Shown here piece by piece: positions 35,971-39,647 of a stretch of 64,000 nucleotides of DNA. Below the pieces are notes generated by a model, which made no database searches, was not told the origin of the DNA, and saw only the letters and a list, made by a program, of their open reading frames with translations. Numbering within the stretch: the stretch's first letter is position 1; each line of letters starts with the position of its first letter. Origin of the DNA: Desulfogranum japonicum DSM 18378 (lineage in GTDB: Bacteria > Desulfobacterota > Desulfobulbia > Desulfobulbales > Desulfobulbaceae); assembly GCF_000429945.1 (NCBI RefSeq), contig NZ_KE386993.1:1-64000 (forward strand). The letters run 5' to 3'. The translations under genes were made by a program, and so were the position numbers.

Positions 35971-37416
35971 ATGAAGCCGTCGATGTTGTTTGTTGTCCTG
36001 GTTGGATTGTTGAGTGTTACCGGATTATTCTGTACTGCTGTTGCTGCTGATGTGGATGCGAACCACAAAACGCAGAGATCGATCACCAAGCAAGTGAAAA
36101 GGGTGGGGGATCTGGACATGATGCAGAAAAAACACGTCATTCGGTTTTTGGTGCCGTATAGTAAGACGTTTTATTTCCTTGATAAAGGGAGACAACGAGG
36201 ACTTACCTTTGATTTTGTGACACTTTTTGAAAAGGAATTGAACAAGAACAGGAAAAAAGGGCAGCTTCCCCTCAAGGTGGTGATTATACCCACAGGAAGA
36301 GATAAATTATTTAAGTATCTTGCCGAGGGCTATGGCGATGTGGCGGCTGGTAACCTGACCATCACTGAGGAGCGTTTGAAAACAGTAGATTTTGCTTCGC
36401 CATTTGCCATGCATGCCGAAGAAGTGGTGGTAAGCGGTGCCGATGTTGCACCTGTGGCAAACCTGGACGATCTTGCGGGAAAATCTGTTTATGTCAGAAA
36501 GTCAAGCAGCTATTATGGACACTTGCAGGATCTGAATAAAAAGCTGTCAGCGCAGGGTAAAAAGGCGGTTGAGATTCAGGCCGCTGATGAACTCCTGGAA
36601 GATGAAGATATTCTTGAAATGGTCAGTGCCGGGGTCATCCCCTTGACAGTTGTGGATAAGCATAAAGTGGATTTCTGGAAACAGATCCTTCCTGACCTAA
36701 ATATAGGGATGAGTACGCATCAAGGGGGAATGATAGCCTGGGCAATTCGTAAAAACAGTCCGAAATTAAAGAAAAAAATAAATGAGTTTGTTGATCAGAA
36801 CAGAAAAGGTTCCTTACATTTTAACATGTTGTTTAAGCGCTACTTGCAAAATACGAAGTATGTAAAGAATAACACGACAGAAAGCGAGTTAAAACGGTTT
36901 CGTCAGTTGGTTGATCTTTTTAAAAGATACGGGAATGAGTACAGATTTGACTGGTTGATGGTTGCCGCTCAGGCCTATCAGGAATCGGGGCTGGATCAAA
37001 CGAAGAAAAGTGCGGCTGGAGCCATTGGAATTATGCAGGTGCTTCCAACGACAGCTGCTGATCCGAACGTAAATGTCAAACAAATAGAAGTACTTGAAAA
37101 TAATATCCATGCTGGTACCAAATATCTCCGTTTTATGGTGGATCGTTATTTCGATAATGAAACTGTTAACACTGTAAACAGGCATCTTTTTGCTTTTGCT
37201 GCCTATAATGCAGGGCCGGCTCGAGTTGCACAACTTCGCAAGGAAGCCGAAGAATCTGGACTGGACCCCAATGTATGGTTTAATAATGTGGAGAGAATTG
37301 CTGCTAAAAGAATCGGCCGGGAAACTGTTCAGTATGTTTCTAATATTTATAAATATTATATTTCCTATAAATTGATAGCAGACAAGATAGAAAAAAAGGC
37401 AAAACTATCCAAGTGA
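35971..37416 (+). CDS. MltF-like lytic transglycosylase with solute-binding domain
   Basis: Starting at the ATG at 35971 (GAGGTGGG upstream), the product is 481 residues. A signal peptide (KPSMLFVVLVGLLSVTG) precedes a family-3 solute-binding domain (HVIRFLVPYSKTFYF, GDVAAGNLTITEERLKTVDFA). The C-terminal SLT domain has AQAYQESGLDQTKKSAAGAIG with the catalytic Glu, then IMQVLPTTA and AFAAYNAGPARV. This two-domain order is that of MltF, which cleaves peptidoglycan glycan strands in the periplasm. Confidence 0.9.
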   Translation: MKPSMLFVVLVGLLSVTGLFCTAVAADVDANHKTQRSITKQVKRVGDLDMMQKKHVIRFLVPYSKTFYFLDKGRQRGLTFDFVTLFEKELNKNRKKGQLPLKVVIIPTGRDKLFKYLAEGYGDVAAGNLTITEERLKTVDFASPFAMHAEEVVVSGADVAPVANLDDLAGKSVYVRKSSSYYGHLQDLNKKLSAQGKKAVEIQAADELLEDEDILEMVSAGVIPLTVVDKHKVDFWKQILPDLNIGMSTHQGGMIAWAIRKNSPKLKKKINEFVDQNRKGSLHFNMLFKRYLQNTKYVKNNTTESELKRFRQLVDLFKRYGNEYRFDWLMVAAQAYQESGLDQTKKSAAGAIGIMQVLPTTAADPNVNVKQIEVLENNIHAGTKYLRFMVDRYFDNETVNTVNRHLFAFAAYNAGPARVAQLRKEAEESGLDPNVWFNNVERIAAKRIGRETVQYVSNIYKYYISYKLIADKIEKKAKLSK

Positions 37417-37456
37417 GTACAGGCTGTTTTTCTTTAGAGGTGCTGCATTTCTTTCT

Positions 37457-37484
37457 TGACTTTCGTCCCGTAAAATATACTATA
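37457..37484 (+). promoter_or_regulatory. Probable leuA promoter
   Basis: TTGACT followed after 16 bp by TACTAT, about 30 bp ahead of the leader peptide start, giving a short 5' end typical of attenuated operons. Confidence 0.5.
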
Positions 37485-37510
37485 GGAGAAACTTTATCCA
37501 AGGAAACACA

Positions 37511-37588
37511 ATGATATTACATCTCGCTCTACCTCTTCAAAATCTACTAGGAACCACAAACGTGGTGCAAGAGGGAGTTCTGCCTTAG
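37511..37588 (+). CDS. Leucine-rich leader peptide of leuA
   Basis: A 25-codon ORF with AAGGA seven bases before the ATG. Seven of 25 residues are leucine, using TTA, CTC, CTT and CTA, with adjacent CTA-CTA at codons 12-13 just before an ACCAC strand. This is the layout of a transcription-attenuation leader in which scarcity of charged leucyl-tRNA stalls the ribosome on those codons. No protein function is expected of the peptide itself. Confidence 0.8.
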   Translation: MILHLALPLQNLLGTTNVVQEGVLP

Positions 37589-37649
37589 CGAGTCAGTATC
37601 TACATAGACCTTTTGAGCCACGGTTTGTAAAAACCGTGGCTTTTTTTTT
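37553..37649 (+). terminator. leuA attenuator: mutually exclusive hairpins and terminator
   Basis: Strand 1 ACCAC (37553-37557) pairs with strand 2 GTGGT (37562-37566). Strand 2 CGTGG (37561-37565) can instead pair with CCACG in strand 3. Strand 3 GCCACGGTTT (37617-37626) forms a perfect 10-bp terminator stem with strand 4 AAACCGTGGC (37631-37640), followed by nine T (37641-37649). Stalling at the CTA pair would cover strand 1 and favour 2:3, allowing readthrough to leuA. The pairing is seen in sequence; regulation is inference. Confidence 0.8.
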
Positions 37650-37955
37650 GGGGGGTGTAGATAGTTCACAGATTAAACGTTCTTCGGTTGTTTCCTGCAG
37701 TAACCCCAGGCTATCTCCGTTCACCAGGAGTTGACACAGGACAAAGGAAATCCGGGAAGAGTGAATATCTGTAAATGGTGACTTTTTTACAGAGTTAGAA
37801 GCGGGGGCGAGACAATTGTTATCTTCTGGATGCTGCCAGAACCAGAACACGCGCCTGGAGTTGCTATATCTTTTCAGCCTTGGACTTTTGTTTGCACAAC
37901 ATATTATTATTGGCCCCATAAAGGGGTATCTTTTGACTGCACAGTGGAGAATCTC

Positions 37956-39647
37956 ATGGATGCGGAAGTATTAAAAAAATACCGACCTTATCAACCAGTG
38001 GATCTGCCTGATCGCACTTGGCCTTCGAACGTAATTAAAAAGTCGCCTGTATGGTGTAGCGTTGATCTTCGCGACGGTAACCAGGCGCTCATTCAGCCAA
38101 TGAGTCTGGAAGAAAAGCTGGAGATGTTCCAGTTGCTCATTAATATAGGGTTTAAAGAGATTGAGGTCGGATTCCCTTCTGCATCCCAAATAGAATATGA
38201 TTTTATGCGTTTGCTCATTGATGGCAACCGTATTCCTGGTGATGTTGTAATCCAGACCCTGACGCAATCACGGGAAAGCCTCATCAAGAAGACTTTTGCA
38301 TCTCTTAAGGGGTGTAAAGAGGCTATTGTGCATTTGTACAATTCCACTTCCACTTTACAGCGCAATGTGGTCTTTAAAAAAGGAAGAAAAGAAATAATTG
38401 AACTGGGTGTGGCTGGAGCTAAACTGATTCGGCAAGAGGCTGCGAAAACTGACACCCGTATCCGGTATGAGTACTCACCGGAAAGCTTTACCGGCACCGA
38501 ACTGCCCTATGCCCTTGAAATTTGTGAGGCAATCATGGACGTGTGGGAACCTACCCCCGATAATCCCATGATAATCAATTTGCCTGCAACTGTGGAGATG
38601 TCAACACCCAATATTTATGCCGATCAGATTGAATGGTTCTGCCGGAACCTGAAAAATCGTGATGCGGCTCTTATCAGTCTCCATGCACATAACGATCGAG
38701 GTACTGCGGTCGCAGCTACTGAACTTGCCTTAATGGCCGGAGCTGATCGTGTAGAGGGGACCTTGTTCGCCAATGGAGAGCGAACAGGAAATGTGGACCT
38801 GGTAACACTGGCTTTGAATATGTTTACCCAGGGGATTGATCCCGGACTTGATTTTTCCAATATCAATAAGGTGATCAATGTGACGGAACGATGCACTAAA
38901 ATTAAATTGCATCCTCGCCACCCGTATGCAGGAGAGCTGGTTTATACTGCATTTTCAGGATCACATCAGGATGCCATTAACAAGGGAATGGCTGCCATTG
39001 AGGACAACGAGGAAACCGGCTGGGCTGTCCCTTACTTGCCCATTGATCCAAGAGATGTGGGGAGAACGTATGAATCCATCATTCGTATCAACAGCCAATC
39101 CGGTAAAGGTGGTGTAGCTTACATAATGGACAGGGAATTTGGCTATAAATTGCCTAAGGAAATGCATCCTGGTTTTGGCCGCGTTGTTCAAGAGGTTGCT
39201 GATGCATGCGGCGATGAATTAAGCCCGGAAATGATAATGCATACTTTTGAAAAGGAATACCTGTTCAATAGCAACGGGTTTGCTTTGAAGGCATTTAATG
39301 TACTCAAAAGACATATTGATTCCGCTGAAGAACTTTCTTCTGCAGAAGTTGAAGCTGTGCTGAAAATTCATGGGCAGGAAAAAAATCTCCATGCTGTGGG
39401 AAATGGTCCGCTGGATGCATTCTGCAAAGCCCTGCGTGAAATGGGAGGCCTTTCCTTTACTCTGCACGCCTACCACGAGCACGCCTTGACAAAGGGAAGT
39501 TCCTCCAAAGCAGTGACCTATATTGAGATCATTGATGAAGATGAAGAAGGTTGGTGGGGTGCAGGTGTGGATACAGATATCATTATCTCGTCCATTAAAG
39601 CGTTATTGAGTGCTTTGAATCGAGCTGATAACAAGCCTGGGAAATAG
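37956..39647 (+). CDS. leuA: 2-isopropylmalate synthase (long LeuA type)
   Basis: Condenses acetyl-CoA and 2-oxoisovalerate, first committed step of leucine synthesis. From the ATG at 37956 the product is 563 residues: HMGL-like barrel (VDLRDGNQALIQPMS, SLHAHNDRGTAVAATELALMAGADRVEGTLFANGERTGN) and a C-terminal LeuA dimer/allosteric domain. The length and N-terminus match the LeuA2-like group found in actinobacteria and some proteobacteria. The open frame reaches 37830 upstream without support. About 300 bp of leader separates it from the attenuator. Confidence 0.94.
   Translation: MDAEVLKKYRPYQPVDLPDRTWPSNVIKKSPVWCSVDLRDGNQALIQPMSLEEKLEMFQLLINIGFKEIEVGFPSASQIEYDFMRLLIDGNRIPGDVVIQTLTQSRESLIKKTFASLKGCKEAIVHLYNSTSTLQRNVVFKKGRKEIIELGVAGAKLIRQEAAKTDTRIRYEYSPESFTGTELPYALEICEAIMDVWEPTPDNPMIINLPATVEMSTPNIYADQIEWFCRNLKNRDAALISLHAHNDRGTAVAATELALMAGADRVEGTLFANGERTGNVDLVTLALNMFTQGIDPGLDFSNINKVINVTERCTKIKLHPRHPYAGELVYTAFSGSHQDAINKGMAAIEDNEETGWAVPYLPIDPRDVGRTYESIIRINSQSGKGGVAYIMDREFGYKLPKEMHPGFGRVVQEVADACGDELSPEMIMHTFEKEYLFNSNGFALKAFNVLKRHIDSAEELSSAEVEAVLKIHGQEKNLHAVGNGPLDAFCKALREMGGLSFTLHAYHEHALTKGSSSKAVTYIEIIDEDEEGWWGAGVDTDIIISSIKALLSALNRADNKPGK

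Follow-up and report, generated by a model that had tools for sequence, protein, structure and literature searches.

Transcription of leuA in Desulfogranum japonicum DSM 18378 is very probably controlled by a ribosome-mediated attenuator which senses charged leucine tRNA. The element lies in a stretch of 64,000 nucleotides, referred to here as the window, and it resembles an attenuator in its components and the order in which they stand, in how well they are conserved, in its codon bias and in its geometry. It is not one odd copy, being common to most members of two families that carry a TIGR00970-type leuA. The features in the window are as follows.

37456–37483, + strand: sigma-70-type promoter, TTGACT-16-TACTAT (-35 at 37456–37461, -10 at 37478–37483; 9/12 match)
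37500–37504, + strand: Shine-Dalgarno-like AAGGA of the leader ORF (anti-SD energy -5.4)
37511–37588, + strand: leader peptide ORF MILHLALPLQNLLGTTNVVQEGVLP, from ATG at 37511 to a TAG ending at 37588; 25 codons plus TAG, seven of them Leu
37544–37549, + strand: control codons CTA-CTA, a rare Leu codon; the last Leu codons before region 2
37553–37557, + strand: region 1, ACCAC, pairing with the region 2 arm GTGGT at 37562–37566 (1:2 hairpin)
37561–37566, + strand: region 2, CGTGGT, pairing with region 1 or region 3
37570–37582, + strand: purine-rich Shine-Dalgarno-like stretch AGAGGGAG with a codon (CTG here) near the leader end, identified by anti-SD pairing
37615–37642, + strand: terminator hairpin (12 pairs in the scan); region 3 is 37617–37622 and region 4 the 3' arm
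37641–37649, + strand: nine T of the terminator, from reading the sequence
37651–37935, + strand: single-copy stretch separating the terminator from leuA, which the closest relative (L004) lacks
37956–39647, + strand: leuA, a TIGR00970-type 2-isopropylmalate synthase by profile match; the controlled gene

The initial annotation had placed promoter, ribosome site, leader ORF, alternative pairings and terminator in this order, and all were recovered within a base or two. The terminator and its nine T were likewise found, although the hairpin has 12 pairs in the scan and not the 10 bp first given. Region 2 pairs with GCCACG at 37617–37622 through six pairs, or eight of nine if one mismatch is included. 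The 176-nt window stretch folds with a z-score of -3.3, a value matched by none of 200 shuffles and one which mostly reflects the terminator. Promoter matches in this stretch alone are within chance (four found, against a shuffle mean of 2.4 with a standard deviation of 1.8); a chance origin of the element is excluded because it is conserved in relatives.

Under the proposed mechanism, transcription would start near 37490 and the leader would be translated. When leucine is short, the ribosome would stall on the leucine codons, of which CTA-CTA are the last, and would cover region 1; with region 2 thereby left to pair with region 3, no terminator could form and leuA would be transcribed. When leucine is ample, the ribosome would run on over region 2, region 3 would pair with region 4 and transcription would stop at the T run. 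Were the leader to go untranslated, the 1:2 hairpin would form and region 3 would again pair with region 4, resulting in termination. Several features of a classical attenuator can be found: a Leu-rich leader, whose translation is predicted, a terminator, an antiterminator which shares the 5' arm of the terminator and, as far as modelling suggests, an appropriate placement of the stall codons. Judged from its sequence, the switch would be expected to work in the cell and to respond to leucine.

The enzyme encoded downstream scores 772.7 bits with the TIGR00970 model (cut-off 697.4), and only 190.5 bits, far below the cut-off of 598.7, with the leuA_bact model. Its start at 37956 agrees with that of its relatives (MDAEVLKKYR), and the two other matches in the same genome are weak, with 31% and 26% identity. 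The gene begins some 300 nt downstream of the terminator because of a piece of about 285 nt which the closest relative lacks. This piece occurs once in the genome and is not a repeat, and it holds a 9/12 promoter-like match at 37881–37910, so that leuA could be partly uncoupled from the attenuator. Long spacers between terminator and leuA also occur in two other loci, L019 (222 nt) and L067 (206 nt). At the edge of the window, positions 1–200 hold part of a 16S rRNA gene on the minus strand.

A search for leuA homologues returned 52 loci from named genomes and a further 30 loci from 57 other genomes, that of D. japonicum included. The loci examined were 51, comprising Desulfobulbia-like records and L045, a locus from a Rhodospirillaceae MAG; removal of five duplicates left 46 distinct loci, a count which leaves out L022, where the sequence is incomplete, and the remaining 30 of the 52 loci, which are more distant. 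The nearest named leuA loci belong to Desulfobulbus and Desulfobulbaceae MAGs, in keeping with the earlier guess, made from the letters alone, that the DNA came from a member of the Desulfobacterota. A Leu-rich leader followed by a terminator precedes leuA in 43 of the 46 loci, L021 included. At L059, which is from the same genus as the window, leuA immediately follows an fbp-like ORF and lacks the leader; the attenuator has apparently been lost naturally within this genus. At L064 the leader is present and a run of N takes the place of the terminator, whilst L045 has a different region upstream of leuA. There, about 300 nt before a leuA match of 67% identity and behind a TTGACA box, is a short ORF, MNATGTLALGLALV, with CTA codons, which is perhaps another leucine leader of different make.

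The first set of leaders, from 43 loci, was picked by enzyme and not by RNA. A covariance model built from these 43 leaders was used to search 257 genomes of the order, and 40 of its matches were fetched, 30 of which lie before a leuA homologue and 10 of which do not. Among the latter, four were viewed (L139, L145, L146 and L167), and in the last three the hairpin directly follows an ORF, as expected of an ordinary terminator. L139 (G014:C48) is a second leader-like copy, MIVAVFLLHSELLLGLLRATETEKDMLC, with a terminator-like hairpin; about 600 nt further on lies a TrmL-like tRNA methyltransferase ORF, and the same genome also has the leuA copy. The 30 matches before leuA, minus one repeat of L021, added a second set of 29 leaders to give 72 in total; in this second set, likeness in the terminator and region 2 is partly due to the way the matches were selected, and the leader ORFs were chosen by eye.

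Across the 72 leaders the terminator (3:4) pairs in 97.0% of cells; two-sided changes occur in 56 cells, compared with a shuffled mean of 19.6. The antiterminator (2:3) is paired in 93.2% of cells, with 17 two-sided cells against a shuffled mean of 8.1, and the 1:2 hairpin in 67.2%, with 29 against 19.9. Sliding one partner by one to three columns reduces pairing to 25–57% for 2:3 and 3:4 and to 23–48% for 1:2. Pairs with a two-sided change are no more numerous than in shuffles for either 2:3 or 1:2, and the slid controls reach 24 and 31 two-sided cells respectively; the evidence for these two structures is therefore the pairing itself and not the raw count of two-sided cells. Among the 43 loci selected by enzyme, pairing of 2:3 extends to 95.6% of cells, with two two-sided cells, a figure reached by 34 of 500 shuffles. 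For 1:2, the share of paired cells falls from 82.6% in the first set to 44.4% in the second, so that the protector hairpin is firm in the first set only, and even there RNAalifold preferred the terminator and a short, weak hairpin to 1:2. The arm shared between structures changes in concert, T-A-T in regions 2, 3 and 4 becoming C-G-C, with the peptide changing from Val to Ala (GTG to GCG). Furthermore, the complementarity of region 2 beats 95% of codon shuffles in 62 of the 72 leaders and all 100 shuffles in 32. A hairpin over the leader stop codon, seen by eye in relatives, has a mean z of -0.69, with 11 of 72 leaders at or below 5%, and in the window a z of +1.18; since this is no better than shuffles, the hairpin is not claimed.

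A promoter match of at least 9/12 is found within 110 nt upstream of 56 of the 72 leaders, where 6.4 are expected from shuffles, and one of at least 10/12 upstream of 44, where 1.2 are expected. The leaders are 22 to 34 codons long and contain 4 to 10 Leu codons (mean 6.8). When codons are counted upstream from the G which anchors region 2, Leu occupies codon 9 in 64 of the 72 leaders, codon 10 in 52 and codon 6 in 54, and then all but disappears, with 12, 1, 2, 0, 0 and 0 occurrences at codons 5 to 0. The CTA-CTA of the window corresponds to codons 7 and 6. CTA itself makes up 113 of the 370 Leu codons (30.5%) at codon 8 or beyond. At codon 9 it is used in 33 of 64 cases and at codon 10 in 27 of 52, and the enzyme-selected leaders taken by themselves give 54 of 228 at codon 8 or beyond. 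The background is far lower: when the longest ORF is taken from every one of the 72 loci, CTA is 1.8% of 3158 Leu codons, and it is 4.2% of 1597 Leu codons in the 29 open frames of at least 300 amino acids in the window. Binomial values for this bias were set aside, as they count related sequences as if they were independent. The initial annotation had proposed peptide-leader control of leuA by leucine and had looked to relatives for its refutation. In these relatives the leucine codons persist (in 43 of 46 loci, and at the positions just given), as do the alternative pairings and an upstream promoter, which supports the proposal.

The placement of the leucine codons was considered further in a folding model that assumes a ribosome footprint of 13 nt beginning with the A-site codon and a transcript that ends with region 3. 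For A-site positions at codons 10 to 6, the predicted probability of 2:3 exceeds 0.5 in all 72 leaders; at codon 5 it does so in 18%, and at codon 4 or later in none. That the probability drops when the ribosome covers region 2 follows from the way the model is constructed; the informative point is that, under the assumed footprint, the Leu codons end where the ribosome would begin to cover region 2. With no ribosome the mean probability of 2:3 is 0.57, and 0.00 in the window. Against the attenuator reading, a ribosome near the start codon also favours 2:3 in the model (means of 0.76–0.83). In addition, 38 of the 72 leaders have a further Leu codon, mostly TTG, beyond region 2, where stalling would not help attenuation.

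The rival which survives best retains the attenuator and alters what secures termination at ample leucine. The ribosome would additionally be held over region 2 by the conserved internal Shine-Dalgarno-like stretch, in place of the 1:2 hairpin, and the held ribosome would be either one terminating at the leader stop or one at a cryptic start, an NTG one or two codons before that stop. This is unlikely. Purines make up 74% of the 15 nt behind region 2, compared with 48% of the whole leader. The mean anti-SD energy, for an anti-SD sequence not read from this genome, peaks at -7.7 kcal/mol after region 2, and upstream, at a distance of 30 to 48 nt, lies near +1 to +2. In 68 of 72 leaders the stretch binds the anti-SD more strongly than the SD at the leader start does (-8.8 versus -2.9), and it resembles the SD of leuA itself, with 13.6 versus 12.6 on a home-made score (67 leuA starts found). 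Despite the leader stop falling at two positions, in 41 and 31 leaders, a TTG, GTG or ATG stands at a fixed codon, five after the anchor, in 54 of the 72, and in the 41-member group the spacing from the stretch to the last sense codon is 4–9. Against this, the spacing is irregular in the 31-member group, the codon in the window is CTG, and the anti-SD match is better than composition shuffles (at or below 5%) in 9 of 72 leaders only; purine richness alone may therefore be selected, for example to stay unpaired. The stretch may hold the ribosome on region 2, or may simply keep itself unpaired. A fuller version, in which a strong second SD-like site keeps a ribosome, terminating or re-initiating, parked over region 2, termination is the default without a protector hairpin and the leader's own start is the weaker, is a shade more doubtful again. 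As for other leaders, E. coli leuL, hisL and thrL have no such strong match, and ilvL has one in mid-leader.

Far less probable is an additional action in trans, either of the small protein itself or of the terminated leader RNA. The peptide tail after region 2 is alike in many leaders of the first set (TVAEGGVLS, TVAGEEGVS), as such a role might imply, but the amino acid follows the pairing change described above, GTG to GCG and Val to Ala, as if it were the RNA that is constrained.

The preferred reading, attenuation through a leader peptide, can be followed across the clade. A second covariance model, built from all 72 leaders and used at a cut-off of E 1e-5 on 257 genomes of the class, matched 128, of which 62 belong to the window's family, 64 to a second and 2 to a third. 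TIGR00970 matches at E 1e-100 were present in 149 of 249 class genomes, distributed as 65, 82 and 2 among the same families. The families are probably Desulfobulbaceae (the window's) and Desulfocapsaceae (the second), the former including Desulfobulbus-named MAGs and the latter a Desulfocapsa-named MAG. In the window's family, 61 of the 65 genomes with TIGR00970 also have the element; the four without a match are G004 (L059, no leader), G029 (L064, the run of N), and G069 and G081, in both of which the leuA match is incomplete. In the second family the model found the element in 62 of 82. Seventeen of the 20 which it missed were fetched and 15 were readable, 12 of them having a Leu-rich leader and terminator and 3 not clearly so. 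In the third family, element and TIGR00970 match fall in the same two genomes. The element thus goes with TIGR00970-type leuA in most members of two families and in two genomes of a third; its position directly before leuA was read in the fetched loci only, the remainder being co-occurrence at genome level. Within the D. japonicum genome, the best other place reaches only E 0.03 in the model search for a second copy.

A wider survey of 395 evenly drawn genomes of the phylum gave nine model matches, eight of which are in the same two families. The ninth, L188 (G566, 365–451), is in another family and lies about 400 nt before a gene that matches anthranilate synthase component I models; its leader, MLKTGSFMALTITPITWRAAGAAGEGSV, has one Trp codon and it has a GGCCGCGG terminator arm, making a trp attenuator of similar layout possible. 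Meanwhile, 20 regions upstream of weaker LeuA matches (18 genomes from 13 other families of the order) had no Rfam match, nor any Leu leader by a filter for an ATG, at least four Leu including LL, and a terminator behind.

T-boxes recognise tRNA directly and do not need a leader peptide. It is almost certain that leuA in the window is not under such an element. T-boxes on leuA have been reported for Geobacter sulfurreducens, G. metallireducens and Pelobacter carbinolicus (PMC2494555, PMC2700814). They are also present, with the RF00230 model, in 10 of 20 scanned loci of distant TIGR00970-like leuA, mostly from Firmicutes. The same model, however, finds no match in the window at the gathering score and none up to E 10 in 37400–38000, where the stretch from promoter to terminator is largely taken up by the leader. 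Taken together, the occurrence of the element with TIGR00970-type leuA, its absence from the regions scanned before other LeuA-like genes and the presence of T-boxes elsewhere point to one leuA type in one class.

That the element is simply the ordinary terminator of an upstream gene together with a chance ORF, as the shortness of the ORF and the frequency of terminators behind genes might suggest, can be dismissed with near certainty given the same leader and terminator before leuA in 43 of 46 loci, the promoter just upstream in 56 of 72, the codon bias, and a region 2 whose complementarity exceeds that of 95% of codon shuffles in 62 of 72 leaders.

A leader-peptide leucine attenuator therefore accompanies one type of leuA in two families of a class, whilst Geobacter and Pelobacter reportedly use the T-box. 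The initial annotation had called the copy notable for a Desulfobacterota genome. This was fair, but only moderately so, as the mechanism is classical; what is new is its clade-wide occurrence, and a literature search, for which subscription papers were mostly beyond reach, returned no report of a leader-peptide attenuator in these two families. From the attenuator one can predict how leucine synthesis is tuned in these bacteria; the 72 aligned leaders and their model provide the basis for a possible Rfam-type family. It is attractive to consider that the natural series, in which the protector hairpin is firm or unclear and one locus has no attenuator, would show, once tested, which parts of the switch are needed.

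A number of parallels and differences can be drawn with known systems. The leu attenuator of E. coli forms alternative hairpins. Like the window element, E. coli leuL is a Leu-codon leader just before leuA, with a terminator ending in a T run, and it too uses CTA (CTA-CTA-CTA-CTA). The resemblance does not extend to the sequence models: RF00512 (Leu_leader), which gives 145.8 bits with the E. coli positive control, has no match in the window, nor in 37400–38000, and none of E. coli leuL, ilvL, hisL and thrL is found by the model built from window-type leaders. Rfam matches to small RNAs (Spot 42, suhB and others), which overlap the terminator, were far below gathering scores and were rejected. 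The SD-like tail of leuL is also weaker, -4.7 at best compared with a mean of -8.8 in window-type leaders, and the enzyme controlled by the window element is of the TIGR00970 type, unlike leuA_bact, whose cut-off it falls far below. The actinobacterial leuA leader, or LEU element, has a run of leucine codons in an ORF upstream of leuA; it has a conserved pseudoknot in place of the terminator and arm-sharing antiterminator of the window element, and mutation data for Streptomyces coelicolor leuA are not consistent with classical attenuation (PMC1262725). The T-box of leuA resembles the window element in sensing leucine tRNA charging ahead of leuA (PMC2494555, PMC2700814).
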